Shown: positions 21,601 through 59,335 of the stretch, piece by piece
Position numbering within the stretch: position 1 is the first letter of the stretch
Layout: every line of letters begins with the position of its first letter
Assembly (NCBI GenBank): GCA_963402885.1
Contig: OY727100.1
Location: 8,233,501-8,297,500, forward strand
Reading direction: 5' to 3'
DNA: 64,000 nt
Source: Antedon bifida
Taxonomy: Eukaryota > Echinodermata > Crinoidea > Comatulida > Antedonidae
Made by a program: the position numbers and the translations under genes
Notes under the pieces: model-generated
What the model was told of the DNA's origin: nothing
Databases searched by the model: none
The model's input: the letters and a program-made list of their open reading frames with translations, nothing else

Positions 21601-24600
21601 GTGAATTAAACACTGGCCCTCGTTGGGTGAATTGTGAACAAAATATAAATTTTCATTTTCAGTTTTTCATCTCTGTTTATTTTATATTATGGTTTGAAAT
21701 TAAATTTAAAAATCAATCCTAAGCCATAAACAGTATAAAAAGGTTGGAAATAGAAGCCTTTTACAGTGCAAGAGGAAAACGAACCCATATTTGTTTAACT
21801 GGGATATTTCTGAATGCCGAATTCATCATTTACCCAGGTACATTCTGATGGTTTTTTATGCCATTTACTCTAGCATACCTCATTTCTGCATCTCAGGTAC
21901 ATAATTCTGGATTATCTCTTGTATTTAGATCCATCAAGCGATATTTCCTGATGGAGCAAGGTGATTTCTTTGTTCACTTTATGGACATCACAGAAGATGA
22001 AATGAAGAAAGGCATGGAAGAAATAATGCCATCAAGGTTGGAGTCACTGGTGGAATTGGCCATCAGAACCAGTGAAGCAAATGCAGATCCTTTCAAAGAT
22101 GACCTCAAGTAGGTATTTTTTAGTTCATTCTTAGGCTGTGTAGAGGCTTCTATGCCACGGAGGCAGCAACCGTTTTTATTCAATCAAGACTATTCCTAGA
22201 TAGCATACATAGTTGCGTATGTGGCTTGTCACCCTGAAAATTACGAATGAACAATTTGGACCGAAGGTCTAGCTTCTGTCTTAGGTATACAACAAAAGGG
22301 AGTCTCATACAACATGTCTCGAATGCAAAATCAAGTTTATTCCTCTCTGATCAATTTCTTATAAAACACGAACAAACACAAAACGATACAAACACAAAAA
22401 CCATGGACCTCAAACAAGAGAATGACCACAATTTAGGGCAATAGTTTAACCCTATGGATAATAAATTTACTTAAGTATGACCTGTCTCCAATTACCAGGA
22501 CTCTTACAGTATGGTTCTTATCAATAACATTAAATTTGTTATAAATCCGGACTAATATATTACGACGTAACCCGTCTCCAACTACCAGGGTGTCTGCAAT
22601 AATATTACCCTTCTCAACAACTTTACACTAATTGCCACTCAGGGCTTACAGAGTAAATACTAGCTCCAGTGTGGTACCTTCCCAACACTTATGTGACTTA
22701 AGTGTCAACAATCAACTGTTATTACCCAATGCAATTCAAATAATATAGAAATATACTGTAACATGGTACTTCGAGTCAGTAACAAAAGACACAACACGCC
22801 ATCGGTATGCTTCCAATTTCTTTATTCTTGGATCTTCACCTTAAGAGCCCCCAAACTATAACCGTTAAAGTTTATGGCTTCCCAGCTCCTGAGGCTACCT
22901 ACAATATAATCATCCCAACAACTTGCTAGATAATAATTGTTACATATGAAATAACACAAAATAGCAATATACTATATACACATAAATTACGAGCTACGAC
23001 GTCCCTCGGATCGGCATAGTATATGGCCTGTCACAAATCCAGGCACTGTATATAGTTTAATGACTGCCTAACCAATTATACAAGAGTAATACAATTTAAA
23101 TAAATACTACTAGGACGTTGCTTACTGCTTCAGCAGCCACTTCGAGCTTGCCCCTTACAAGTTCCTAGCCTGATCCTTGATCATATCAGCTACGGTAACT
23201 TCTTACTTCTCTCTACTTGGAGACCTGGGCACAACTCCAATTCTCATCAAGGCAACGCCCTACTACGTGGCATACTCTACTGTGTACCCCTTGCTTTGCA
23301 TATTCATTTAAATAATTTTAATTAATTTGTCGCCCTCTAGCGGTCTAAAACCTTTTAAATTTTTAACCTTTTAAAAACATTATCAACTGTGACATATACT
23401 ACTGCTTATTATTCTGATACTGTGGATTTACAACACCAAGTTATCTTTTCGAAGTGTCAGCTACAGTTCCACACGCTAGCTGTCTCTTCTTCCAGTGGTT
23501 AACATGGTTAAAATGGCTGTGGCTTTCAGACTTCCTCCGGTTGTACCATTTACAAATTGTTAAGTGTAACCTCATGTACTTGAACGTAGACGACAAATGT
23601 CCACTGGCAAAGGCTGCTTAGACTATCATAGGAGACGACGAATTAGATGCACGTTCAGCTGTGAGCCTTGTCGGGAGTTTCAATCCGCGATACTGCGCTC
23701 ACCCCAGTCCGTCGATTTATAACTGAACTACAATAATATGAGCATCATGGTTCTACCAATTCTTATAAAAGGCCAGGCTTATACAGTTAGGTGCGACCAA
23801 TGCACACTGCGCCCCACGATAAATAAGCTCTAAACAATCACTCCTAGATGTCCCGCACAATTGGCTCCTAGATTTACCGCACAATTGGCTGTGGGAAATA
23901 ATGACTCAACGCAATGATGTCGAGAGATTGAGTGCCCAACATTTCGCAAACCACGCTAGACGACGCTTCGCCTCACCGGGCAAGCAATATGCAATTATTC
24001 CGCCGCAACAATACCTTGAAATATTCTATGGTCCTATACCTACCACTCTAGAGAGGGCGCTATACTAGACTATAGTTTTCAAGTGTGACATGGCTAATCA
24101 CTACATCTCCTCTTTTCATGCATTCACACGACAGTACAGAATAGTGTTACAATAGTGTCTTTCATTTTATCATTCATTTCATACATACATTTTTTTGTAT
24201 TGTACTATTAAAAAAAAGTTTACTTTCAAAAACATGAAATGATTAATTAACTTAATTGGATTATGGTCTGGGGAATCCGCCGGGGTTTTCCACCAATATA
24301 TGTTTTCTATTTTGAAATAATCGGCAGCGTACTGCGAAGTATGTTTGGGATCATTGTCCTTCATGAAACAGAATTTGTTATCTGTGAACTTAGCTGAAAC
24401 ATACGGACGTAATACTTTATCTAAAATCGTGTCCACATAAAATTCTTTCCTCATTATACCGTCAAATATGATGATTGGCGTCGCTCCCTCTGTAGAAATT
24501 CCTGCCCATATGTGTAATGTTGTCCTAGGTTTCGGTTGTTCAATTCAAGTTCAATTGTACATTCGCCTGTAAAGATAACGCGTTTGAACTGTTCGGCATT

Positions 24601-27600: not shown

Positions 27601-30600
27601 CTAGGGTAAACTTGAGCTCTATCTACACTATCAAACTTATGTGAAATGTGATCTGCCCATATATGGACATAATGAAGTCATTTCACTACCATATTTGGTA
27701 CCATATTTTTGTCACATAAAGTTTGATAGTGTAGAAGAGCATTTAGTTGATCATTTTGTTTAGTGCATCGCGATACACATAGTTTTGAGAACTGTGAAAT
27801 ATTATACAAATAATGAATCGATGCTGAGAATATTCACATCAATGTATGTTGTAAAAAAAATAATGAGTGAAATGGAGAGAACATTTTAAGTTGAAAGATT
27901 GACTTCTCTATTTAAAGATGTATTGTCCCTTGAAACACAAAAAAATGAAGGTCGAATTATTCTAAATTTAAATTGGCCATATCAAAGTAATATTAAAGTT
28001 ATTCACTTTAAGTTGAAAATTTGTTTACGTAATTAACAGGTAAATTAATTTAATTACATTTCGTCTGGAAAATCGTCGCGAGCTAAAGTAAACAAAGATT
28101 TCAAACCACGAGTATGCATTATGCATGATACTAATTAGGATTGTTTACAACTCGTCACGGTTGAGAAGGTGTTTTCACACAGATCTCGAGGAAATTTTAT
28201 GATTATGCATACAGAGTAGCCAAACAAGCGCGTTGCATTATGAGATATGTTTTGATCGAAAACTTTGACTGGAAGTCAAAGTTATTTTTTCTGTATTTCA
28301 GTTAAATGATTTTTTTTTCGACTTATTTTTTGGTGAAAGTTAATAACTATATGATACTTCAAAATGACGCACTTTTTTTCGAATATTTTTTTAAACATTT
28401 TTTTGGAATTAGTCAAAGGGACAATACATCTTTAACAAGGCAGACGAATATAAATATTCATTATTTTATTATTACTTGACTACAGCATATGCCTTTTTGA
28501 ATAGACCAGTCAATCTTTAAACTTAACATTTTCTATTCATTCCACTCATAAACATTCATTATTTGTTTTACAACATACCTATGGCTGTAAACTATTATTC
28601 AACTAATATTAACCACTTACATTTCTAGGCCCATTACAAAATATGGTGGAGTAGATCCGCTATATATGATGATTTTTGTTTGCTATTACAGGCATTGACA
28701 AAATACCAGATGTTATTTCGTCATCTGTTCTATTGCAAGCATGTTGAACGTACCATATGCAGTGTTTGGCTTAGCAACAAGAGTGCCAAGAAGTTCTCTC
28801 TGCATTCTTCCAAGTGGTATGCAGCAGGGTTTGCTCTCCGTCAGCGAATGTTGCATCTTGTTCAGAATCTCCAGTACTACATGATGTTTGAGGTCATTGA
28901 ACCCAATTGGTTATTGATGTTGGAGAATTTTAGAAGTGTAAGTTAATGATAAAGATTAACATGCAAACTACATTTCTATATTGTGTTTAGAAAAAAATGT
29001 TTAGATAATTTATTCATTCAAAATACAATCAAGTATAAATAAGTATATGTAATTATGAATGAAGATTCTTACATAAGTGTGTATGTGTGATCAAGATCCT
29101 CTATTAACATTTTGTTTGACTTACCTCATGGTTTGGACTATATCACAAAATATTTTTTTGAGCATGCCCTGCGTTAACCCTCTATTAAAAATCTAAAAAA
29201 GTGTAATATATGACATCATATTAGGATTCATCACTTCAACATTAATTCTGTCATTAGAATATTCCAGAATTATTTTCTTATTGTGTATTCAACTCCCAAT
29301 TGAATCATTTAGCACCTTGACTGATAATAATTTGTGTGATATCTTCTTGCTTAGGTGTCTAATATTGATGATGTCTTAGAACATCACACAGACTTCTTGG
29401 ACAAATGTTTGAAAGACTGTATGCTAACAAATCCTGATTTACTCAAGATAGTCAGTAAACTCATGCTTGTTTGTGTTACCTTCAGCAACTGCATTCAGGT
29501 GAGTGTCTATATTCAGGGGAGTGCCTGAATTCAGGTGAGTGTCTATATTCAGGGGAGTGCCTGAATTCAGGGGAGTGTCTATATTCAGGAGAGTGCCTGA
29601 ATTCAGGTGAGTGTCTGTATTCAGGTGAGTGTCTATATTCAGGTGAGTGTCTATATTCAGGAGAGTGCCTGAATTCAGGTGAGTGTCTGTATTCAGGTGA
29701 GTGTCTATATTCAGGAGAGTGCCTGAATTCAGGGGAGTGTCTGTATTCAGGTGAGTGTCTATATTCTGGTGAGTGTCTATATTCAGGAGAGTGCCTGAAT
29801 TCAGGGAAGTGTCTGTATTCAGGTGAGTGTCTATATTCAGGGGAGTGTCTGTATTCAGGGGAGTGTCTGTATTCAGGAGAGTGCCTGTATTCATGTGAGT
29901 GCTTGTATTCAGGGGAGTGTATGTATTCATGTGAGTGCCTGTATTCAGGGGAGTGTCTGTATTCATGTGAGTGCCTGTATTCAGGGGAGTGTCTGTATTC
30001 AGGGGAGTGTCTGTATTCAAGGGAAGGGTCTATATTCAGGGGAGTGTCTATATTCAGGGGAGTGTCTGTATTCAGGGGAGTGTCTGTATTCAGGGGAGTG
30101 TCTGTATTCAGGGGAGTGTCTGTATTCAGGGGAGTGTCTATTCAAGGGAAGGGTCTATATTCAGGGGAGTGTCTGTATTCAGGGGAGTGTCTGTATTTAG
30201 GGGAGTGTCTGTATTCAGGGGAGTGTCTGTATTCAGGGGAGTGTCTATATTCAGGGGAGTGTCTGTATTCAGGGGAGTGTCTGTATTCAGATTCTATTCT
30301 CATTTTGCACATCTTCCATATTTTTAATAAAGTACATATTTTACAGCGATTCACTCAAAGTATGAATGTTGAAGCTCAGGTAGCTCAGTTGTCAACTACA
30401 GAGTCTACACGAAGAAAAGATAGAAAAGGATCTAAAGACACAGATGAATCAAAAGCAAAGAAACAAACTACAACTAAGGTTAGTTTGTATGTATCGACTA
30501 CCAAGAATTTGTGTAATGGTGTATAAAGAATGTATAATATAAATATTATTTTCAGTATATAAAAATAATAACCTAAAATATAAAAAACTCCAGACAACAG

Positions 30601-33499
30601 TTCACAAGATCCTGTTCACCAATTAAACTGGCTAGCCATATACATGGTTCACAAGATCCTGTACACCAATTAAACTGGCTAGCCATATATACATGGTTCG
30701 TTACAACAGTTCACAAGATCCTGTACACCAATTAAACTGGGTAGCCATATACATGGTTCACAAGATCCTGTACACCAATTAAACTGGCTAGCCATATACA
30801 TGGTTCACAAGATCCTGTACACCAATTAAACTGGGTAGCCTTATACATGGTTCATTACAACAGTTCACAAGATCCTGTACACCAATTAAACTGGCTAGCC
30901 ATATACATGGTTCGTTACAACAGTTCACAAGATCCTGTACACCAATTAAACTGGCTAGCCATATACATGGTTCACAAGATCCTGTACACCAATTAAACTG
31001 GGTAGCCATATACATGGTTCACAAGATCCTGTACACCAATTAAACTGGGTAGCCATATACATGGTTCATTACAACAGTTCACAAGATCCTGTACACCAAT
31101 TAAACTGGCTAGCCATATACATGGTTTGTTACAACAGTTCACAAGATCCTGTACACCAATTAAACTGGCTAGCCATATACATGGTTCATTTACAGCTTAT
31201 CTTACAATTCTAGCAAGCCTTCTTCTACTTTCCACTATACTATCCTTTCTTCCTTCACTGAAAAATTCCTACCACTAGAGGTTATCAACCAACCATGACA
31301 GTGGTGCATGACTAAGTATGAGACGTGACTTCAAACTGGTGTATGTGATTGGCCAATTGGTACAGTCATATTCGATGGGCCCTCTTGTATGTTGAAACAC
31401 TTTTTGACCTACGATAATCTCTTCGGATATAATATACTTTTTTGTGACTTTCACACAGGTTGTATCTGAGCATGTAGATCAGTTGATCGCCAGTGAAGAG
31501 TTCAAACGAACGATTTCTAACTTTGACACCAATTTCTCAACTCTACTGATTGAGCTCCTGGATAAGCTAAGCATCTACAGTACCACCAACTGCGAGCACA
31601 ATATGATGAACATCATCCATCGTCTGGACTTTAATGGCTTCTACACACATCAGTTGGAAGACCTAGCTTTGGAGAGAAGCACATGTGAAGATCCCAAACG
31701 TGGAGATGAAGGTATGTGGAACTTGCAAAAATAACTCAGGGCCAGTGGAACGTTTTGTAGGGGAGGGTGTCGGTTGTTTTGATAGTGGGAAAAAAGTAAA
31801 TGTTTTGTTTAATGTTTGCTAGAGTTTCTTAATTGAGCTGGACATTAAGCATAAAAATAGGGCACTTAATCTATCATATGACCCATAATCAAATTACAGG
31901 AATCTATTTAGGTGTAATAATATACAAATAATGAATGTTTATGAGTGTATTTGTAATAATAATAAGTGTAATACCTTACCTTATTTGATTCAAATGACAA
32001 GAATCTATTTAGATGTTATATAAAACAAATAATGAATGTTTTATATTCGTGTAATGGTACAAATAATGGTACAAATAATATCAACTTGGCTGTCGCCTCG
32101 TTGATATATAACCTTTCATCATTCACCTCATGCCATTATTTGTACCATTACACGAATATAAAACATTCATTATTTGTTTTTATATAACATCTAAATAGAT
32201 TCTTGTCATTTGAATCAAATAAGGTAAGGTAGCCCTAGCCAAAGGCCTACATTTCATTCACATTGATTAAAAACAGTAACATTTGGTTTTTAATATTATA
32301 TTAAATGTTATATTTATATGGATTTTATAAACACACCTACTTTAGTGTTAATTATGTCAACAAACGACCAAACAATCTTAGGCCTAGCAAGGCTAAAACG
32401 CCTAGACTAGGCCTAGCCTAATAGAGCATGGCCTAGGCTAGACCTAGTAGCCTACTAGTACTAGCTTGGCTGAAAGGCAAAACTTCGACAGACAATTGGA
32501 ACTTATCTAGGCTAATTATGGTTTTTCCAACAATTCCACGTCTTGTAGGCATGTCCCCATTAATTAATCAAAATCCTAAAAACGATCTAAAGCTAATTTA
32601 AATGCCTTTTTGAATGAAATTAGTACAGTACATATATGTCCAAATCGTACACAAATATCTGCTGCTGTTGCATATCTCGCGGTGGTGTTTACTATTTACT
32701 TACTTACTATGTTGTACTATTGCACACCATGTGACCCACAATCGTCCAATCAAATGACAGGAATTTATTTAGGTGTTATAATAAACAATATACAAATACA
32801 ATAGTATACTCCTAGTTTATACAGGATTACAAGAGAGGTATATCAGATGTTTATCAGTTTATTTTTGTGTTTGAACACAAAATAAGCTAAACCACAAAGG
32901 TGACTGTATTTAATTCCATTAGTGAAAATAACATAACTATAGAGTTGTCAATATCTGTAAATCAATATTTTCATAATGATACAATAAAGTACTATTATTG
33001 TAATGTATTGTACTACCGGTTAGCCTATGCCAGGATAAGGCTACTACTGTAAAATCACGGGCTGCAGCAGTTATCGCATAATTCCCAGGGCCTATTTTTT
33101 CATTTTGCATTTTAAAGTGTGTAATATAATTTTTAAAAAAACTGTCTTTTTTTAACTATACATAGCTACTTATATGTACATTTAAAAGACTTCCTCATCA
33201 TCCAAATTTGAAATTGAAACCAATGAACCAAAACAATTGAACGAATATTATTATCTCATTATTGTGTCAAGAACAATTACTTATATAAATACTTTCTTTC
33301 AAATGTGCTTTCATTTTGTTTGTTTAGATATCAGAGCTTTGCATTTTACATTAAGAACAAATGTTAAATGTTTTGTTACTAAGTAATGTTTTCTTTCTTC
33401 CTTTACTTTTTAGCCATCTCATCATTATTGAAAGGTGCCTCTATAAAACTTCCAACTATATCATTGGATGAAGGTCGAAGGTCAACTAAAGGTTCTTAG
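15553..33499 (+). CDS. TUBGCP2: Gamma-tubulin complex component 2 (GCP2), 17 coding exons
   Basis: This subunit of the gamma-tubulin small complex binds gamma-tubulin and nucleates microtubules at centrosomes and other organising centres. Coding exons: 15553-15605, 16391-16558, 17125-17387, 17523-17692, 18099-18326, 18987-19186, 19620-19734, 20301-20475, 20983-21133, 21929-22108, 26799-26872, 27271-27365, 28692-28937, 29355-29498, 30347-30478, 31459-31711, 33414-33499. All introns are GT-AG and all phases join, giving 910 residues against about 900 for vertebrate GCP2. The start MSEFRVHHHVSELIKLLG is the conserved GCP2 N-terminus. The GRIP1 region runs from about residue 200 to 505, with EKWIYKGIIRDPY and GDFFVHFMD near its end, and GRIP2 follows to about 880 with GLEAFSFDYIV, MLFRHLFYCKHVER and LSIYSTTNCEH. 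A splice acceptor 18 bases before the ATG implies an upstream noncoding exon. The C-terminal 28 residues are less conserved. Confidence 0.96.
15955..16170 (+). repeat. tRNA-derived SINE in GCP2 intron 1
   Basis: GGAGCTGTAGCTTGGTGGTT is a tRNA 5' half with a good box A. CCAGGGTTCATTCCTGACC about 45 bases on is the box B arm. A non-tRNA body follows, ending in an A-rich stretch. It is transcribed within the GCP2 pre-mRNA in the same orientation. Confidence 0.75.
16391..16558 (+). CDS. TUBGCP2: GCP2 coding exon 2
   Basis: Encodes TKGDEGPEVFTDLLLKNRTP, then VHGAKRKIAEFTRTP and DFLKKYDELKSK. The donor is AA|GTGAGT. This is the conserved N-terminal region before GRIP1. Confidence 0.93.
17125..17387 (+). 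CDS. TUBGCP2: GCP2 coding exon 3
   Basis: Begins after TTTGCAG with VRDLDVLVSLLSKI. A charged, poorly conserved linker follows, rich in K, M, S and Q, and the exon ends RQTKKN before donor GTATGT. The linker lies between the N-terminal helix region and GRIP1. Confidence 0.9.
17523..17692 (+). CDS. TUBGCP2: GCP2 coding exon 4
   Basis: Encodes PVIPAWAYERPHLTDEF, then VQELAIVQDLLMVLK, at the start of the GRIP1 region. The donor is AAG|GTAACT. The preceding intron of 135 bp is the shortest in the gene. Confidence 0.93.
18099..18326 (+). CDS. TUBGCP2: GCP2 coding exon 5
   Basis: Begins GSEGRYIFVKP and continues LVYRILPMCSNYSTIMRFVE to KAIRTLIK, a canonical GRIP1 segment. Acceptor TTTTGTAG and donor GTAAGC, both in phase 0. 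Confidence 0.94.
18987..19186 (+). CDS. TUBGCP2: GCP2 coding exon 6
   Basis: Encodes EYFILIAQLEYQYLLENLPL, then LQRLWFYLQPCMQTLDILAS and GGSVLSLLHEK. The acceptor is TTTTTTCCCAG. The exon ends GG before GTAATT. Confidence 0.94.
19620..19734 (+). CDS. TUBGCP2: GCP2 coding exon 7
   Basis: Encodes DAKAQDLCLYLTQSACAPYF, then EILEKWIYKGIIRDPYCE. The donor that keeps frame, GAG|GTTGGT, is weak, and a stronger GTAAAT lies four bases downstream. The reading frame stays open into the intron as far as 20070 (see findings). Confidence 0.92.
20301..20475 (+). CDS. TUBGCP2: GCP2 coding exon 8
   Basis: Encodes FMVEENDSVHKEKLQWEYND, then YWEQRYTICRDRIPVFLQTV and KILSTGKYLNVIRQC. The acceptor is TTTTTTTTAG and the donor G|GTAAAT. 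Confidence 0.94.
20983..21133 (+). CDS. TUBGCP2: GCP2 coding exon 9
   Basis: Encodes GRSPACPIAEEILYTLNERE, then YVDQIEKTFSHASQELIDLL, ending LMARLR at a split arginine. Acceptor ATTTCAG, donor GTATGC. Confidence 0.94.
21929..22108 (+). CDS. TUBGCP2: GCP2 coding exon 10
   Basis: Encodes SIKRYFLMEQGDFFVHFMDI, then RLESLVELAIRTSEANADPF and KDDL. This is the highly conserved GRIP1/GRIP2 junction. The donor is AA|GTAGGT, followed by the 4.7 kb transposon-filled intron 10. Confidence 0.94.
22240..24110. other. Unassigned repeat-like DNA in GCP2 intron 10
   Basis: More GC-rich than its flanks and without a coding frame. Two diverged copies of a segment of about 90 bp are visible (CTGTCTCCAATTACCAGG at 22482 and CCGTCTCCAACTACCAGG at 22572). 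The phrase CGCCCTCTAG near 23331 recurs inverted near 24046. It is probably the noncoding part of an inserted element, but I cannot name the family. Confidence 0.4.
24230..24925 (-). pseudogene. Dead Tc1-like transposase
   Basis: On the minus strand: CTGRPSKFRDEHLTIINNEM (helix-turn-helix region), SDRSVRQRRRRLEWVCEGAR, VIFTGECTIELEL, then in another frame PRTTLHIWAGIS, GATPIIIFDGIM, CFMKDNDPKHTS and TPADSPDHNPI. This is the order of a Tc1/mariner DDE transposase (PF01498/PF13358 type). The first catalytic Asp (normally TDEC) is Gly. The third acidic residue, normally Glu after NPI, is Lys. An internal stop and at least one frameshift also occur. Only the middle Asp of DNDPKHTS remains. It sits antisense in intron 10 of GCP2. 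Confidence 0.85.
25340..25860 (-). pseudogene. Ty3/gypsy gag relic with CCHC zinc knuckle
   Basis: On the minus strand NQDARDAEIKNQIIHGGRNK, then FCRQALQEDMSLDNI, matches the capsid C-terminal region of Ty3/gypsy Gag. After frame changes comes CNYCHEFGHFVRCC, a C-x2-C-x4-H-x4-C zinc knuckle (about 25459-25500). Stops interrupt it and no pol follows. It lies antisense in GCP2 intron 10, next to the deleted LINE. Confidence 0.75.
25990..26640 (-). pseudogene. Internally deleted LINE: ORF1 head joined to RT tail
   Basis: From 26635 down to about 26200 the minus strand encodes an ORF1-like protein: a basic, Q/K-rich start, a coiled-coil-like stretch (IESKNKETKSQVEAHQSEIS), then LNKSERFSRRNNIRLVGFEQ, the hallmark RRNNIRI/L motif of LINE ORF1 proteins. 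At about 26180 it switches frame into KFFTQNICNVWNKLPSMVI, then SINRFKSRLEKHL, the extreme C-terminus of a CR1/Jockey-like reverse transcriptase, and stops. The endonuclease and RT domains are missing. Confidence 0.8.
26799..26872 (+). CDS. TUBGCP2: GCP2 coding exon 11
   Basis: Encodes PILLPYDLITQLLRILSIES, then KQEK. The acceptor TTTTACAG and the donor AAAG|GTTAGA flank it. The exon immediately follows the repeat-filled intron 10. Confidence 0.93.
27271..27365 (+). CDS. TUBGCP2: GCP2 coding exon 12
   Basis: Encodes EMDPTEIHISGLEAFSFDYI, then VRWPESLILSRK. The acceptor TTTCAAG is chosen over an AG two bases later because only it keeps phase. Donor GTAAGA. Confidence 0.93.
27912..28435. mobile_element. 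piggyBac-type MITE, long copy (family 1)
   Basis: TTAA then AGATGTATTGTCCCTT at the left, and AAGGGACAATACATCT then TTAA at the right. The 16-base terminal inverted repeats are perfect and TTAA flanks both sides. It shares ends with the 272-bp element at 5164-5435 and lies in GCP2 intron 12. No transposase is encoded. Confidence 0.85.
28470..28575 (-). repeat. Half copy of the foldback MITE family
   Basis: AATAGACCAGTCAATCTTT, then CACTCATAAACATTCATTAT and TTGTTTTA matches the right arm of the foldback elements at 31972-32231 and 37355-37531. The complementary left arm is missing. It starts about 35 bases after the MITE at 27912-28435. Confidence 0.55.
28692..28937 (+). CDS. TUBGCP2: GCP2 coding exon 13
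   Basis: Encodes ALTKYQMLFRHLFYCKHVER, then SVWLSNKSAKKFSLHSSKWY and NLQYYMMFEVIEPNW, the centre of GRIP2, which contacts gamma-tubulin in this family. Both edges are in phase 0; donor AGT|GTAAGT. Confidence 0.95.
29355..29498 (+). CDS. TUBGCP2: GCP2 coding exon 14
   Basis: Encodes VSNIDDVLEHHTDFLDKCLK, then DCMLTNPDLLKIVSKLM and CNCIQ-type end (FSNCIQ). It ends GCATTCAG|GTGAGTGTCTAT. This exon-intron junction is the founding unit of the 18-bp minisatellite that fills intron 14. Confidence 0.95.
29499..30292 (+). repeat. 18-bp minisatellite filling GCP2 intron 14
   Basis: About 44 head-to-tail units of consensus G(T/G)GAGTGTCT(A/G)TATTCAG, beginning exactly at the intron 14 donor. The exon side of the donor (ATTCAG) and the intron side (GTGAGTGTCTAT) together make one unit. 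By my count thirteen units keep the GTGAGT donor hexamer, all in the exon-proximal part up to about 29970. The rest, and all distal ones, read GGGAGT, GAGAGT or GGAAGT. An alternative unit GCCTGAATTCAG is frequent at the left. The long open frames over it exist only because 18 is a multiple of three. Confidence 0.95.
30347..30478 (+). CDS. TUBGCP2: GCP2 coding exon 15
   Basis: Encodes RFTQSMNVEAQVAQLSTTES, then a lysine-rich stretch (TRRKDRKGSKDTDESKAKK) ending TTTK. The first residues are conserved and the basic tail is a variable spacer in GCP2. The exon sits between two minisatellite introns; acceptor TTTTACAG, donor GTTAGT. Confidence 0.92.
30599..31190. repeat. 47/60-bp minisatellite in GCP2 intron 15
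   Basis: Eleven units start TTCACAAGATCCTGTACACC and contain AATTAAACTGG(C/G)TAGCCATATACATGG. Six are of the 47-bp form or close to it. Five carry an added 13 bases at their end (TTCGTTACAACAG or a variant). Units are nearly identical, so the array is young. The minus-strand 75-codon frame over it is a by-product of the repetition. Confidence 0.93.
31459..31711 (+). CDS. TUBGCP2: GCP2 coding exon 16
   Basis: Encodes VVSEHVDQLIASEEFKRTIS, then NFDTNFSTLLIELLDKLSIY, STTNCEHNMMNIIHRLDFN and GFYTHQLEDLALERS. This is the conserved end of GRIP2. Acceptor CACACAG, donor G|GTATGT. Confidence 0.95.
31885..32231. mobile_element. Foldback (palindromic) MITE in GCP2 intron 16
   Basis: The arms at about 31972-32085 and 32120-32231 are near-perfect reverse complements (TACCTTACCTTATTTGATTC ... 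GAATCAAATAAGGTAAGGTA). The short loop contains CGCCTCGTTGATATATAAC. Just before it (31885-31960) is a partial, more diverged copy of the same arm, so one copy appears nested in or next to another. Relatives: 2780-2860, 28470-28575, 32705-32805, 36690-36920 and 37355-37531. Confidence 0.8.
32705..32805 (+). repeat. End fragment of the foldback family
   Basis: Reads TTGCACACCATGTGACCCA, then CAAATGACAGGAATTTATTT and AGGTGTTATAATAAACAA. It is the reverse complement of 2780-2860 and a longer version of the outer arm at 31885. It lies in GCP2 intron 16. Confidence 0.55.
33414..33499 (+). CDS. TUBGCP2: GCP2 coding exon 17 with stop
   Basis: Encodes ISSLLKGASIKLPTISLDEG, then RRSTKGS and TAG at 33497-33499. 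The acceptor is ACTTTTTAG. Phase agrees with exon 16. This tail is not strongly conserved in the family, so alternative last exons are possible. Confidence 0.8.
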
Positions 33500-39667: not shown

Positions 39668-41389
39668 TTACTTGCTTGAAAATGGCGGGCCTAAGTACTT
39701 ATAGATGCTTAGGCAATGTCCGTCCACTCCAACAGCACTTGGCATTGTTGTTTTTTTCTGCCACTCTTTTATTCGTGGATCGAACAATTGAAGATCACAT
39801 TGTCGTTGTTTATGTTTGTTTATGATGGCAGCATATATCTTGTCTCTCACAGCTACAGCCCCAAACAAATTTTGCTCCTTATTTGGCAACAACATTGGTG
39901 GCAATAGACTATCGGATTTGATGTCATAAACTTGCATTCCGTTAACGCCATACCCACTCAGTATATACATGATGTCATCGATAACTATTGCTGGGAACCG
40001 CTTTCTTGGAATGCTTACTGCTCTTATCACTGTCCATGTGTCATTGGTTGTATCGTAACACTGGATGTTTTGAAACTGATTCAACTGACTACAAGCACTA
40101 CCACCCGTCACATATATTTTATGTTTGTTTGAAACGACGACAGGAGAAGATACTGCAACTGGTAATGGATTAACAACTTCCCATAGATTTTCAGCAGGAG
40201 AAAATCTTTCAACCATATCAACCATCCTGTTATCTCCAATTATATAGAGAAACCCATTGACACCAATGGACGAATGCTGGGTACGTGGCATGTGAAAATT
40301 CTTGCATGAATGCCAATTTGCTTTATCGACATCATAACAATACACTTCATTACTGACGATTTTAGACTTTATTCCACCAGAAATGTAAATACAATTGTTT
40401 AAAGTCCCAACTGCGAAATCAAATATATCCAAATTAGGTAGTCTTGTAAGAATACCCCAACGATCGGTTGACGGATTGTAATAAAACACATCACGATCAT
40501 GAGAGCAGCTGCCACCCATTACCACAACTACTTCGGATTTGGTGGAATAACGAGGAATGAGAGTGGAATCACAAAGGTATTTTTCTCGTAAACGTAGCTG
40601 GTTATTTCTGGCACTTCTCAGCATGTCAGCACATTCTGGGTTTTGTTTAATGAGCGGATTGTCAAGCTGTTCAAGTAGAAAGTCTGGTCTTGTGAAAGGC
40701 AGACGGACGCAAGACAGAAGAGATGGTAGCAGTTCCTGGTTATCATTGGATCTAATCCAGGCAAATATTGCTTTGTAAATGGACTCTTCTCTATCGATGT
40801 TTATTTCATCATTTGACAGATACTGCTGTAACTCCTGCAGTGTTAGTTGATGATATTCATCATGTTTAACAACCTCCATGAAATAATCCAGTGCATATTG
40901 TTGTGCCTTCTTATACAAATTCCACAGTGAAAGCCTCTCAGAGAATTTCTGTATTCCTAAGCAATTTGGTGGATCCAGATTTTGTATTAAGAAGTTACAA
41001 CATGCATCGATCACCTTATTATATTGCAAATGACATGCTGTTTCTAACAAAGCTTGTGCATTTGAATCAGTCACTGTTAACTCTGTTGTGTATGAATAGT
41101 CAAGCAAAAGTGAGAAAATGTGAGGATCAATTTGGTTGTTAAAGTGTACAACGCCATTGATGCTTTCAGAAAGATTACTAGTAAACATTGCACGGAAATA
41201 CTCGCTACTGCAAGCCAATATTGCACGATGTGCATGGAAGGTTCTCTTGTGTATGTGGATGATGGTATCTGTAAGGTCTCCACGTTTTCGCATGTTATCC
41301 AGCGAACAAAGGATGTCGTGTGGTTGACTACATGTTTCCGTTTTCAGTTGTTTGTCATCTGCAGGTTTCAATGAAGAACTTTCGGCCAT
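39668..41389 (-). CDS. Kelch-like BTB-BACK-Kelch protein, 573 residues
   Basis: A complete intron-free frame from ATG (AATGTACGATGGCC context) to TAA. The BTB domain is at about residues 24-136 (GDLTDTIIHIHKRTFHAHRA, then ILACSSEYFRAMFTSNLSE), BACK at about 143-245 (IQKFSERLSLWNLYKKAQQY, YKAIFAWIRSN, RLPFTRPDFLLEQL), and about five or six Kelch repeats at 286-565 with GG or related doublets (VVVMGGS, YISGGI, YIIGDN, YVTGGS, YILSGY). Proteins of this architecture act as substrate adaptors for cullin-3 ubiquitin ligases, BTB and BACK binding the cullin and the Kelch propeller binding the target. The length is usual for the family. I cannot assign the exact KLHL orthologue. A CAG acceptor at 41432-41433 suggests an intron in the 5' UTR. 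Confidence 0.93.
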   Translation of the reverse strand: MAESSSLKPADDKQLKTETCSQPHDILCSLDNMRKRGDLTDTIIHIHKRTFHAHRAILACSSEYFRAMFTSNLSESINGVVHFNNQIDPHIFSLLLDYSYTTELTVTDSNAQALLETACHLQYNKVIDACCNFLIQNLDPPNCLGIQKFSERLSLWNLYKKAQQYALDYFMEVVKHDEYHQLTLQELQQYLSNDEINIDREESIYKAIFAWIRSNDNQELLPSLLSCVRLPFTRPDFLLEQLDNPLIKQNPECADMLRSARNNQLRLREKYLCDSTLIPRYSTKSEVVVVMGGSCSHDRDVFYYNPSTDRWGILTRLPNLDIFDFAVGTLNNCIYISGGIKSKIVSNEVYCYDVDKANWHSCKNFHMPRTQHSSIGVNGFLYIIGDNRMVDMVERFSPAENLWEVVNPLPVAVSSPVVVSNKHKIYVTGGSACSQLNQFQNIQCYDTTNDTWTVIRAVSIPRKRFPAIVIDDIMYILSGYGVNGMQVYDIKSDSLLPPMLLPNKEQNLFGAVAVRDKIYAAIINKHKQRQCDLQLFDPRIKEWQKKTTMPSAVGVDGHCLSIYKYLGPPFSSK

Positions 41390-41429
41390 CGTACATTACA
41401 AGTAGGTTTCTTGACAGTAAATTTTTGGC

Positions 41430-45929: not shown

Positions 45930-48900
45930 GTATTTTATAACTGACTTTCCTAATACTATAGTATAAAATTTAGGCCTAGTAGGGCCTAGGCTATATAGGC
46001 TAGGCCTAGACTATAAAGACTAAATATATCAAAAAGACCCCCGCATGCGCACAAACCCTGCTTGTTTTGATCCTTAAATTAAGGATCGTTAAGCAGTAAG
46101 TATTCCAAAGAAGAAGAAGAAGAAGACTACCCTAAATTGAGATGATGTTTATTATATTAATTATATTAATAATAATAATTATTATAATTAATTAATATTA
46201 ATTAAGGCTGACTCAGCTGAAAATATATGAATTATGATTGCCCACAATGTAATGTTGAACTGATGAGACAATTGGCATGGTTAAGCATGTACATATAAAT
46301 TTCAATTTCCTAGACATGGTTCATGCACATAAATTAGTATTTTATATTACCAGCACAGTCAACCCTGCATCTAATGATTCCTTGTTTTCTATCGGCAAAG
46401 TTGACAATTCTTTTCACCAGACAGGAAACGGTCATATTATCTGTCGGCCACTCATCATCTACCTACAGTGGGTGCAGGTCAACTCGGCCCAAAACCGTCT
46501 CGGCCAAAGTCAAGTCGGCCCCATGTCAACTCGGCCTCAAGCCAACTCGGCCTCACATCAACTCGGCTATATACTAATCGGTCAATTCGGCCATATTAAA
46601 GTATGGAACACAAAAAGTGCTTAATTTATTTAAATATTATTAGTTGTGATGTTATTGTTAGTCTCAGTAGGCCTAGGCCTATATGTTGTTTATGTAGGCC
46701 TAGCCTATATATTTTGATACAAGGATTTTCCCAGAATGAATCGAAATATTCTTAGATATAGGCCTAGCCTAGGCCTAGATACAGTAGATATTATTAGATT
46801 ACAGTAAAATAAAAATGTTTATAAAAAATAATATATTTAAACTTATTTTATTATTTTATCAATTCGCTTCGCTTTTTGCGTTCCATACTTTATTGTGACC
46901 GAGTTGACCGATTAGTTTTTGGCCGAGTTGACGTGAGGCCGAGTTGACTTGAGGTCAAGTTGACGTGTGGCCGAGTTGATGTGTGGCCGACTTGACTTGG
47001 GGCCGACTTGACTAGGGGCCGACTTGACTTTGGCCGAGACGGTTTAGGGCCGAGTTGTATCGAATTCACCTACAGTACTAGCTACTTACTAAAAAAACAG
47101 GTAATGTTGAGATGTTGGCGAGTCGACCTAATCCTTGTACTCAATAAAAACAGCAGTGAGTAAAGATGAGATGAATTAATTAATTAACTAGCGGTTTGAA
47201 AAGACTAATCCATAATTATGGATTAGTATTTTCAAACCGCTGGTTGAAATGATGAGCAGGGTAGTCTAGGACCTGGGTCAGATTTGTATGCATTTAATTT
47301 AGGAGAGAATATCTCAACTGTTATAGGATAATTTGACCCCAAGGAACAACATGGGATATGTGCCAAATTTGCTATCCGGGGCGAACATGCCCAAAACCGG
47401 GTCAAAAATGTGCATATTTTATTATTTTTTTACAAAAATGAGTATATTAAATAGTGTAAATTTAGTTTGGTTTATTTATAATATTAAATAATTCAAATGT
47501 TCTTTTGGTGTCAAATTGTTCAGAATATACATATTTATATTCAGTCTAACACAACTTTTATCGAAAAAATTACCGGAAATGCTTCTACTGACCTTTGACC
47601 CCAAAATGACCAAAAACACATTTTCTGGTTAAATTATTTTTTCACTAAAAGTTGTATTAGACTGAATATAAATATGTATATTCTGAACAATTTGACACCA
47701 AAAGAACATTTGAATTATTTAATATTATAAATAAACCAAAATAAATTTACACTATTTAATATACTCATTTTTGTAAAAAAATAATAAAATATGCACATTT
47801 TTAACAAAATTAGCATCATAAATACAGATTTTTAATACAAGTTGGGTAGAAATGGATAGAATATTTTATGGGCTTTCATTTGATACCAAATAGTTTTTCC
47901 AAACACTTAATCATAAACATAACAATTACGCTACCAAATATTCATTTTTTCTATAAAGTTAATCAAAATATGCACATTTTCCATACAATTAGCTTCATAA
48001 TTAAATATTTTCAATACAAGTTGGGTAGCAGTGGGTAGCACATTATGTATGCTTTCATTTGATACCATACAGTTTGTCCATTTGCATTTTAAAGAATAAT
48101 TTAACCCGAAAATGTGTTTTTTTGGTCATTTTTGGGTCAAAGGTCAGTAAAAGCATTTCCGGTCATTTTTTCGCTAAAAGTTGTGTTAGACCGAATATAA
48201 ATATGTATATTTTGAACAATTTGTTCCCAAAACCAAATCTGTACGACAAGTGGTTGTCGAGATATAAGAACCACACATTTTTAACCTTTGACCCCGGTTT
48301 TGGGCATGTTCGCCCCGGATAGCAAATTTGGCACATATCCAATGTTGTTCCTTGGGGTCAAATTATCCTATAACAGTTGAGATATTCTCTCCTAAATTAA
48401 ATGCATACAAATCTGACCCAGGTCCTAGACTAGGGAACTAGATGCACTGTGCCAATATAAAATAATAAATTGCCTGCTACATGGTCAGCAAATTAATATT
48501 AAAAACATAATGCAGAAAGGCTGCTTTTGCTTTCAAATAACGATGTTAAATCCAATCTATTACTTTTTTTTTCAGATTTCCTTTTACTTACAAGCTTTAT
48601 CATTTTTTGGAATCTTTCTCTTCAATGCATTGATGTGGACATTGTTTGTAAAATCTTTACAACTTTCAAGATCATCTGTACAGGCAACTGTTACAAACAG
48701 TGCATCTAATTTTTTCTTTTCTGTAAGTTGGATTTATGCAAAGTACTGTATCTCTATTGTAGATTAATAAAACATTGAGTACAATCAATTCTCATGCTTG
48801 TGATCTGGTGCATGCCAATTCAAATCATTCATTCATTACGTAAAAGAGGTCCACGGTACCGAACAACTCGATGTCAGTGACCTGCAGGCAGTTGACCCTC

Positions 48901-53659: not shown

Positions 53660-54260
53660 TCACCTATCATTAGTCTGGGGATGGTAAGCACTTGTTTTAA
53701 GTTGAGTTATATGCACTCTACTACATAAGTCCTTCATGATCTTTGACATGAAGTTGGTACCCTGATCATGAACTATTTCTTGAGGTATGCCTGTCCTCGA
53801 GAAAACAGTGATCAATGCCTTAACTACCGTTTCAGCTCTTATGTTGGAAAGAGGAATCGCCTCAGGGTATCTAGTGGCATAATCACAAATAGTCAATAAG
53901 TATCTGTTTCATTTCTGTGTTCTTTCTATTAACGGCCCTACGATATCAATGCCTATTCTCTTAAATGGCGTGTCTATTATGGGCATAGGAAATCAATGGA
54001 TTTTTACGCTTGCGCTTAGATTTGTTCATCATTTGACATATAGCGCATGTACGACACTCTTTATGTGCTTGCGCTCTGGTCAAAACACATAAATCCTTCG
54101 CTATAACGTTACCACAATGAGCATCTAAGTCATGTCCTAACAGAAGTCTCGTTGCAAACCTTCGATAATCGCTACTTCTACTGAACCTTTCACTACTTTA
54201 CATTGTACGTCTATCAAAGCTAATATAATTCTGGTCCGATTTTCTCTTGTGTGGTAGTTC
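53660..54260 (-). pseudogene. Ty3/gypsy pol relic: protease end joined to integrase
   Basis: On the minus strand: ALIDVQCKVVKGSVEVAIIE, LLGHDLDAHCGN (end of a retropepsin-like domain), DLCVLTRAQAHKE, CRTCAICQMMNKSKRK (second half of the integrase zinc finger), PMPIIDTPFKRIGIDIVGPL, then the catalytic core TICDYATRYPEAIPLSNIRA, IVHDQGTNFMSK and SAYHPQTNDR. Two catalytic Asp positions are visible; the Glu that should follow the YHPQTNG motif is lost. Stops and frameshifts are present, and reverse transcriptase and RNase H are absent between protease and integrase. Confidence 0.8.
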
Positions 54261-55159: not shown

Positions 55160-58100
55160 CTTTCACAAATTTACATCATCAATACATGCTTCTAGGACAC
55201 AAATTGACTCAGTGGAATTCTCTGTTAATTCATTCATGAGAATCTTTCATACTCAAGTTGATATACCTTGCAATGTTTATAAGTTGATAATATGACATTC
55301 CTATATATTTATTCCTGTCACTCAGTGTCAGTGAAATATAAAAAGAGAGTTACTTTTATTGTTTCGTATAGTAATGTGAGATTTTGTGAAATTAAATGTC
55401 CAGATTTCATTAATTCATTCAGGAGAATCTTTCATACTCAAGGTGGATACCTTAAAAATGTTTGCAAGTTGATAATATAACATTCCTATATATTTATTCC
55501 TGTCACACATTGTCCGTGAAACATTTTTTTTTAAATCGTTGCTTTTATTGTTTCGTAAAGTTGATAAATACGACATTCCTATGTTTATTCCTGTCACTCA
55601 GTGTTGTTGAAATTTTAAAATAGAGTTACTTTTATTGTTTCATAAAGTAAGATTTTGTGAAATTAAATGTCCAGATTTAATTAATTCATTCAGGAATATC
55701 TTTCATACTCAAGGTGGATATACCTTAATATGTTTATACGTTTATACATATGATAAATATGACATTCCTATATATTTATTCCTGTCACTTGGTGTTGGTG
55801 AAATAATAAATGAGTTACTTTTATTGTATCATATAGTAATGTGAGATTGTTTGAAATTAAATGTCCAGATTTAATTAATTCATTCATGAATATCTTTCAT
55901 ACTCAAGGTGGATATACCTTAATATGTTTATAAGTTGATAAAAGTGACATTCCTAGATATATTTATTCCTGTCACTCAGTGTTGGTGAAATATAATAAAA
56001 GAGTTACTTTTATTGTATCGTAAAGTGATGTAAGATTTTGTGAAATTAAATTTCCAGATTTAATTAATTCATTCAGGAGAATCTTTCATACTCAAGGTGG
56101 ATATACCTTAAAAATGTTTGCAAGTTGATAAATATGACATTCTTATATCTTTATTCTGGTCAGTGTCGGTGAAATATAAAAAGAGAGTTACTTTTATTGT
56201 ATCATAAAATATTGTGAGATTTTTAAAAAAATGTCCATATTTCCTTGATTCATTCATGAGAATCTTTCATACTCAAGGTTAATATACCCAAGTTGATAAA
56301 TATGACATTCTTATTCCTGTCGGTGAAATATTAAAAGAGAGTTACTTTTATTGTTTCGTAAAGTAATGTGAGATTGTTTGAAATTAAATGTAAGATTTCA
56401 TTAATTCATTCAGGAGAATCTTTCATACTCAAGGTGGATATACCTTAATATGTTTATAAGTTGATAAATGTGACATTCCTATATATTTGTTCCGGTCAGT
56501 GTCGGTGAAATATAAAAAGAGAGTTACTTTTATTGTATCATAAAGTATTGTGAGATTTTTTGAGATTAAATGTCCATATTTCCTTGATTCATTCATGAGA
56601 ATTTATTTCTTTCATACTCAAGGTTAATATACCCAAGTTGATAAATATGACATTCTTATTCCTGTCGGTGAAATAAAAAAAGAGTTTTACTTTTATTTTT
56701 TCGTAAAGTAATGTCAGATTTTGTGAAATTAAATATCCAGATTTCATTAATTCATTCAGGAGAATCTTTCATACTCAAGGTGGATATACCTTAAAATGTT
56801 TACAAGTTGATAAATGTGACATTCCTATATATTTGTTCCGGTCGGTGTCGGTGAAAGATAAAAAGAGAGTTACTTTTATTGTATCGTATAGTAATGTGAG
56901 ATTGTTTGAAATTAAATGTCCAGATTTAATTAATTCATTCAGGAATATCTTTCATACTCAAGGTGGATATACCTTAAAATGTTTACATGTTGATAAATAT
57001 GACATTCCTATATATTTATTCCGGTCAGTGTCGGTGAAATATAAAAAGAGAGTTGCTTTTATTGTATCATAAAGAAAGGTGAGATTTTTTGAGAATAAAT
57101 GTCCATATTTCCTTGATTCATTCATGAGGATCTTTCATACTCAAGGTTAATATATCCAAGTTGATAAATATGACATTCTTATTCCTATCGGTGAAATATT
57201 AAAAGAGAGTTACTTTTATTGTTTCGTAAAGTAATGTGAAATTGTTTGAAATTAAATGTAAGATTTCATTAATTCATTCAGGAGAATCTTTCATACTCAA
57301 GGTAGATATACCTTTAATATGTTTATAAGTTGATAAATGTGACATTCCTATATGTTTATTCCTGTCACTCAGTGTTGGTGAAATATAATAAAAGAGTTAT
57401 TTTTATTGTATCGTATAGTAATGTAAGATTGTTTGAAATTAAATGTCCAGATTTAATTCATTCATTCATGAATATCTTTCATACTCAAGGTGGATATACC
57501 ATAATATGTTTGCAAGTTGATAAATATGACATTCCTATATATTTATTCCAGTCAGTGTCGGTGAAATATAAAAAGAGAGTTGCTTTTATTGTATCATAAA
57601 GAAAGGTGAGATTTTTTGAGAATAAATGTCCATATTTCCTTGATTCATTCATGAGGATCTTTCATACTCAAGGTTAATATATCAAAGTTGATAAATATGA
57701 CATTCTTATTCCTGTCGGTGAAATATTAAAAGAGAGTTACTTTTATTGTTTCGTATAGTAATGTCAGATTGTTTGAAATTAAATGTCCAGATTTAATTAA
57801 TTCATTCAGGAGAATCTTTCATACTCAAGGTGGATATACCTTAATATGTTTATAAGTTGATAAATATGACATTCCTATATATTTATTCTGGTCAGTGTCG
57901 GTGAAATATAAAAAGAGAGTTACTTTTATTGTTTCGTAAAGTAATGTCAGATTTTGTGAGATTAAATGTCCAGATTTAATTAATTCATTCAGGAGTCTCT
58001 TTCATACTCAAGTTGATATACCTAAAATGTTTACAAGTTGATAATATGACATTCCTATATATTTATTCCGGTCAGTGTCGGTGAAATATAAAAAGAGAGT

Positions 58101-59335
58101 TACTTTTATTGTATCATAAAGAAAGGTGAGATTTTTTGAGAATAATGTCCATATTTCCTTGATTCATTCATGAGGATCTTTCATACTCAAGGTTAATATA
58201 TCAAAGTTGATAAATATGACATTCTTATTCCTGTCGGTGAAATATTAAAAGAGAGTTACTTTTATTGTGTCGTATAGTAATGTAAGATTGTTTGAAATTA
58301 AATGTCCAGATTTAATTAATTCATTCAGAAATATCTTTCATACTCAAGGTTGATATACCTAAAATGTTTGCAAATTTGATAAATATGACATTCCTATATA
58401 TTTATTCCGGTCAGTGTCGGTGAAATATAAAAAGAGAGTTACTTTTATTGTATCATAAAGAAAGGTGAGATTTTTTGAGAATAATGTCCATATTTCCTTG
58501 ATTCATTCATGAGGATCTTTCATACTCAAGGTTAATATATCAAAGTTGATAAATATGACATTCTTATTCCTGTCGGTGAAATATTAAAAGAGAGTTACTT
58601 TTATTGTATCGTATAGTAATGTAAGATTGTTTGAAATTAATTGTCCAGATTTAATTAATTCATTCAGGAGAATCTTTCATACTCAAGGTGGATATACCTT
58701 AATATGTTTATAAGTTGATAAATATGACATTCCTATATATTTATTCCTGTCACTCAGTGTTGGTGAAATATAAAAAGAGAGTTACTTTTATTGTGTCGTA
58801 TAGTAATGTAAGATTGTTTGAAATTAAATGTCCAGATTTAATTAATTCATTCAGAAATATCTTTCATACTCAAGGTTGATATACGACCTTAAAATGTTTG
58901 CAAATTTGATAAATATGACATTCCTATATATTTATTCCAGTCAGTGTCGGTGAAATATAAAAAGAGAGTTACTTTTATTGTATCATAAAGAAAGGTGAGA
59001 TTTTTTGAGAATAATGTCCATATTTCCTTGATTCATTCATGAGGATCTTTCATAGTCAAGGTTAATATATCAAAGTTGATAAATATGACATTCTTATTCC
59101 TGTCGGTGAAATATTAAAAGAGAGTTACTTTTATTGTATCGTATAGTAATGTAAGATTGTTTGAAATTAATTGTCCAGATTTAATTAATTCATTCAGGAG
59201 AATCTTTCATACTCAAGGTGGATATACCTTAATATGTTTATAAGTTGATAAATATGACATTCCTATATATTTATTCCTGTCACTCAGTGTCGGTGAAATA
59301 TAAAAAGAGAGTTAAGATTTAATTAATTCATTCAG
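55160..59335. repeat. Satellite array, about 22-24 monomers with higher-order repeats
   Basis: Monomers are marked by TTCATACTCAAGG, AAGTTGATAAATATGACATT, TATTTATTC, GTCGGTGAAATAT, AAAGAGAGTTACTTTTATTG and AATGTCCAGATTTAATTAAT. Two main forms occur: long ones of about 176-194 bp with GGTGGATATACCTTA, and short ones of about 151-160 bp with GGTTAATATATC and a trimmed TTCTTATTCCTGTCGGTG. Blocks near 58500-58800 and 59030-59310 are almost identical, so there is a multi-monomer unit of about 530 bp. Open frames of 60-90 codons inside are by-products. Confidence 0.93.

Follow-up and report, generated by a model that had tools for sequence, protein, structure and literature searches.

A minisatellite at a GCP2 5' splice site in Antedon bifida and its probable birth by slippage at the splice junction

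We analysed 64,000 nucleotides of DNA from the crinoid Antedon bifida (contig OY727100.1, positions 8,233,501 to 8,297,500 of the forward strand; this whole stretch is the window below), in which an intron of the GCP2 (TUBGCP2) gene opens with a long tandem array whose 18-bp unit is the 5' splice site itself. Our analysis suggests that this intronic minisatellite was probably born at the splice site by slippage or exchange, that it has since been tolerated, and that its distal units lost their GT dinucleotides mostly by homogenisation. The arrangement of 44 head-to-tail units of 18 bp agrees with the definition of a minisatellite, which takes units of about 10 to 100 bp in many copies.

The array at the GCP2 splice junction and its origin

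The original prediction had assigned the gene to GCP2, and protein comparison bears this out. The exon that precedes the array (29355-29498) by itself matches the Pfam family GCP_C_terminal (PF04130; E 3.2e-11), and this exon joined to the next two matches five distinct PDB GCP2 sequences in phmmer (best 6tf9_RP1, E 1e-57). The homology is unbroken over the junction, which reads CIQ|RFTQSM here and CLQRFTQSM in the best PDB GCP2 match. Because this match is continuous, the array-bearing intron can be bounded at 29499-30346; it is 848 nt long and in phase 0, with repeats over its first 792 nt and unique sequence over its last 56 nt. The exon end and intron start read ATTCAG|GTGAGTGTCTAT, and unit 1 of the array is the gene's own donor at the exon edge, given that CIQ and RFTQSM are contiguous in PDB GCP2 chains.

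Tandem Repeats Finder (TRF) placed the 18-bp array at 29489-30290, with 44.6 copies, 87% matches and a score of 1152. Parsing from the exon edge divided 29499-30290 into 44 units, all variants of GTGAGTGTCTATATTCAG (42 of 18 bp, one of 19 bp and one of 17 bp), in line with the roughly 44 copies of the junction that had been predicted. With up to three mismatches allowed, the 18-mer has 47 matches in the window, compared to 0.11 expected by shuffling; 42 lie inside the array, and the other five, each with three mismatches, fall in an unrelated 183/339-bp satellite. GTGAGT is kept in 13 of the 44 units (1, 3, 7, 8, 9, 11, 12, 15, 16, 19, 23, 25 and 27), as had been counted for the first 29 or so, and the bases before it are CAG in nine of them, CAT in three and CTG in one. 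The other units start with GGGAGT (23 units), GAGAGT (5) or otherwise (3). The description of the distal units as nearly all GGGAGT also held, given that units 28-44 start with GGGAGT in 15 of 17 cases, with GGAAGG in two and with GT in none. The claim that every unit ends in TATTCAG went too far, since 31 of the 44 do so and 37 end in ATTCAG. Units 1-22 show a periodicity of 4 and 7 units. An unusual unit pair with ATTCAAGGGAAGGGTCTAT is present twice, at 30015-30040 and 30140-30165, seven units apart, which suggests a block duplication within the distal half. The features of the junction and the intron are as follows.

29355..29498, + strand: GCP2 (TUBGCP2) exon of 48 codons, phase 0 at its end, last codons TGC ATT CAG (phmmer, Pfam)
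29493..29498, + strand: ATTCAG at the exon end, 5' member of the pair of short direct repeats flanking the array (sequence)
29499..29516, + strand: unit 1, GTGAGTGTCTATATTCAG, carrying the donor that protein homology demands (unit parse, phmmer)
29517..29534, + strand: unit 2, GGGAGTGCCTGAATTCAG, with no GT at its start, supplying an in-frame TGA if the exon is extended to a later unit (unit parse)
29499..29984, + strand: proximal block, units 1-27, with 13 GTGAGT units and 13 distinct unit sequences
29985..30290, + strand: distal block, units 28-44, with no GT at the unit starts and 6 distinct unit sequences
30285..30290, + strand: final ATTCAG, the 3' copy of the bounding direct repeat (sequence)
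30291..30346, + strand: unique 56 nt of the intron, including the acceptor TTTTACAG; the exon resumes with RFTQSM at 30347

Elsewhere in the same locus, a DDE_3 transposase piece (24179-24544, - strand) lies between the GCP2 exons at 21849-22112 and 28629-28943 and probably sits inside a GCP2 intron.

The model of Haber and Louis (1998), as described in PMC6947457 and PMC2820488, places the birth of minisatellites between short flanking direct repeats. The GCP2 unit has this construction, with a flanking repeat of 6 bp joined to the 12 bp that separate its two copies, and the array is bounded at both ends by that repeat, ATTCAG, which is itself part of the unit. It differs from the generic case of the model in that one repeat belongs to coding exon and a splice donor occupies the interval, and in that the ancestor is inferred. 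We envisage an ancestral intron of about 74 nt, made of one unit and the 56 unique nt, with two chance copies of ATTCAG, one closing the exon in its final six bases and the other at intron position +13. An 18-bp duplication would have followed from slippage, or from unequal exchange of one copy with the other, and later block duplications would have expanded the array to 44 units, lengthening the intron to 848 nt. The gene's need for a donor would have kept unit 1 perfect, with the other units free to drift; among these, donor-bearing and donor-less versions would have spread by homogenisation, the distal GGGAGT block being the latest. The copy of ATTCAG in the exon is probably the older one, given that it consists of conserved codons.

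An origin by slippage at the splice junction had been proposed from the outset, and several observations speak for it: the unit is the junction and the array starts exactly at the exon edge; ATTCAG lies at both of its bounds, beyond which 36 nt of flank, compared to the unit over 18 offsets, match it at best at 13/36 downstream and 16/36 upstream; and the exonic part of the unit belongs to conserved GCP2 coding sequence that continues into the next exon in PDB GCP2 chains. Furthermore, an exact search of the genome (315.6 Mb, 27 contigs) found the 30-mer of two intact units at one place and the reversed control pattern at none. A dispersed repeat or transposon carrying the motif was rejected on this single placement, with the proviso that diverged copies would escape exact matching. 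The substrate for such a duplication is not rare, because, of 390 other AGGT sites in the window, 5 have another copy of the preceding 6-mer within 60 nt and 72 another copy of the preceding 4-mer. We also count in favour of this origin a second, unrelated minisatellite (47/60-bp units, GTTCACAAGATCCTGTACACCAATTAAACTGG...; TRF) in the very next GCP2 intron, at 30600-31190. The array patterns had no match, and the exon protein no locus, in genome_contigs and viral_contigs, which hold prokaryotes and viruses and are uninformative on animal relatives. Our findings suggest that minisatellites can arise from a splice junction itself.

Donor copies, reading frame and possible effects in the cell

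Duplex energies were calculated against the 5' end of U1. The nine CAG|GTGAGT units each pair with it at -11.7 kcal/mol and match the 5' splice site consensus, and this value is not equalled at any other + strand GT site in the window. Eight of the nine are further copies identical to the real donor, located 36 to 324 nt downstream of it. Seven other candidate donors of the GCP2 gene pair at -5.9 to -9.5 kcal/mol; among these seven, only 28938 and 30479 adjoin exons tied to GCP2 there by phmmer or Pfam, the rest being candidates at the ends of open reading frames. A pairing energy of -6.9 kcal/mol or better is reached by 38 of the 44 units compared to 3 of these 7 candidates. Acceptors were scored with a crude matrix that ranks the true acceptor so low that discrimination fails, and on this non-discriminating scale the array ATTCAG acceptors (n=36) average -1.0, at the 82nd percentile of AGs in the window, and the true acceptor scores -5.1, at the 52nd. 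The array acceptors may thus compete, as the original prediction held.

The unit is six codons long and the exon ends in phase 0; unit 2 reads GGG AGT GCC TGA, which places a stop codon at 29526-29528. Unit 3 provides the first alternative GTGAGT donor. Because unit 2 holds an in-frame TGA and has no GT at its start, every later GT donor (units 3 to 27) puts the TGA into the messenger RNA (mRNA), as the original prediction had stated, and downstream donors would not give longer in-frame proteins here. The premature stop in an alternative isoform by which a poison exon is defined is thus present as sequence potential. The predicted truncated protein would run up to the residue aligned to position 763 of GCP2 chain 7as4_A (902 residues), with nine residues added, and would lack the last part of the C-terminal domain. 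A message with such a premature stop is a substrate of nonsense-mediated decay.

One + frame is open from stop to stop through the array (29459-30526, 355 codons, across the 19- and 17-bp units) and shares the frame of the exon that follows the array, where its translation ends QRFTQSMNVEAQ... We considered the array as a coding exon read from the preceding exon and rejected this, given that the open frame is out of frame with that exon. Nothing supported the open frame as a coding exon. A transcript starting within the intron could conceivably use the open frame.

We propose that unit 1 would normally serve as the donor and that units 3 to 27 would be decoys, competing at times, whereupon translation would read nine additional codons before a stop and the message would be exposed to nonsense-mediated decay. 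The gene would tolerate this competition, and the array would be a tolerated load and not a device; that it is merely tolerated is what we consider most likely. The alternative is that the intact downstream donors compete with unit 1 as a dial of unproductive splicing, setting the share of GCP2 transcripts that decays, such that array length or GT count would tune the GCP2 dose. We hold this to be unlikely, if still worth entertaining: the eight downstream copies share the U1 energy of the real site and the TGA of unit 2 is present in each longer exon, yet a neutral array would carry an equal load. The donor sink or tunable poison switch of the original prediction found no support. 

A human gene bears on this question. 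The minisatellite of human 6-16 / IFI6 (G1P3), which Turri, Cuin and Porter reportedly described in 1995 (Nucleic Acids Res 23:1854), is said to have about 26 copies of a 12-bp unit similar to the donor consensus, located at the edge of an exon, and use of its downstream donors is said to add whole codons. The GCP2 array resembles the array so described in having a donor-consensus unit at the exon edge; unlike it, the GCP2 array has 18 bp x 44, lies in an unrelated gene and carries a stop in its second unit. Two downstream repeat units of IFI6 are reported to serve as donors, giving three mRNAs (PMC4526556), which speaks for use of the GCP2 copies as a dial. This was the only precedent for a splice-donor minisatellite met in our literature search, and others may be in print. 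The GCP2 array looks like a slippage accident of the kind already described in this human gene.

A 12-bp palindrome, CCTGAATTCAGG, is present in six units (2, 4, 6, 10, 13 and 17). Its CCTGAAT complements the ATTCAGG of the exon end, so that masking of the donor could in principle occur. RNA folding gave z -2.08 for 29480-29620 (6 of 200 shuffles equally stable) and z -1.32 for 29450-30346 (3 of 20 shuffles equally stable), both too weak to build on.

The ladder of identical 5' splice sites at multiples of 18 nt, next to an exon that is conserved and with a stop codon already in place, amounts to a natural test of how the spliceosome picks one of several equal donors. Given the habit of minisatellites, the copy number may well vary between individuals, which would provide a dose series.

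Loss of GT in the distal units and the less probable readings

The original prediction had offered two explanations for the missing T of the distal units, namely that donor strength was selected against or that it was homogenised away, and our comparison of the two blocks favours the second. T in column 2 of the unit is found in 13 of the 27 proximal units and in 0 of the 17 distal ones (Fisher p 0.0005). The polarity is repeated in column 8, for which no role in the donor is known (10 of 27 proximal and 0 of 17 distal units with C, p 0.004), and it is for this reason that homogenisation is preferred; column 12 shows a weak polarity (A in 6 of 27 versus 0 of 17, p 0.07). Columns 2 and 11 are altered equally often, in 29 of 42 units each. 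Identity within the block is 0.942 for units 28-44 and 0.864 for units 1-27. The distal loss of GT looks mostly like late homogenisation, in which one donor-less type was spread by a late distal expansion.

We ran neutral simulations with uniformly placed block duplications in four settings, which gave 1958 comparable columns, together with a smaller run. Some column was altered in at least 31 of the 44 units in 8 to 23% of the arrays of the smaller run. The following points weigh against our preferred account. A distal run of at least 17 altered units was seen in only 39 of the 1958 simulated columns, with 38 of the 39 in one setting, and the smaller run gave such a distal run in 0 to 12% by setting and retained 10 to 16 GT units in only 0.8 to 5.1% of arrays. 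Because uniform turnover by itself rarely yields the distal run, the account needs either late distal expansion or selection as well, and one allele cannot separate these two. Column 11 is without polarity (A in 9 of 27 versus 5 of 17, one of the five being in the unaligned 17-bp unit). The upstream flank match of 16/36 is in phase and the highest of the 18 offsets; we take it as chance, the stretch being conserved coding sequence. Finally, the order of events and the use of donors are inferred from one allele.

Selection against decoy donors could have stripped GT from the far units and left U1-like copies that cannot be spliced. The contrast in GT between the proximal block (13 of 27 units) and the distal one (0 of 17) would fit this, as would the rarity of the pattern in uniform neutral simulations, and the original suggestion of selection retains a small place on that account. 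We nevertheless consider selection improbable. Variation at the donor-critical positions (+1, +2 and +5) is confined to +2, with +1 and +5 intact in all 42 units of 18 bp, and changes at other donor positions are few (-1 in three units, -2 in one, +3 in three and +6 in two). In addition, the polarity of column 8 has no known donor role to explain it, and the nearest decoys (units 3, 7, 8 and 9) are intact.

The 31 of 44 units in which the donor place has no GT could bind U1 and yet remain unspliced. The intron might then act as a landing strip for the U1 small nuclear ribonucleoprotein (snRNP), with array length, given the nine identical full donors and the stop of unit 2, setting the productively spliced share of GCP2 transcripts, an idea that we regard as very doubtful. 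Were it true, the array would be a copy-number dial on microtubule nucleation, possibly differing between individuals.

A model of intron gain (PMC4974935) involves tandem duplication of an exon segment that bears AGGT, and the GCP2 array is similar to it in being a tandem duplication over an exon-intron boundary with AG|GT in the unit; it is dissimilar in that, on present evidence, it lengthens an existing intron and makes no new one. That the array itself created the intron by exon copying is scarcely credible, because the 12 bp after ATTCAG do not resemble the beginning of the following exon (CGATTCACTC) and have no counterpart in the conserved protein, and because 12 of the 18 bp of the unit are intronic and the acceptor lies in a unique 56-nt region of the intron's own.

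Other features of the window

The satellite-like 183/339-bp tandem array occupies several kilobases at 55558-59226 (TRF). An uninterrupted BTB-BACK-Kelch frame of 575 codons from stop to stop, KLHL-like, lies at 39668-41395 (- strand), and a piece of rve integrase at 53660-53908 (- strand). Two 16-bp tandem arrays, at 46480-46567 (CTCGGCCTCAAGTCAA) and 46920-47038 (GGCCGAGTTGACTTGA), are rough reverse complements about 350 bp apart and are perhaps parts of a small mobile element.
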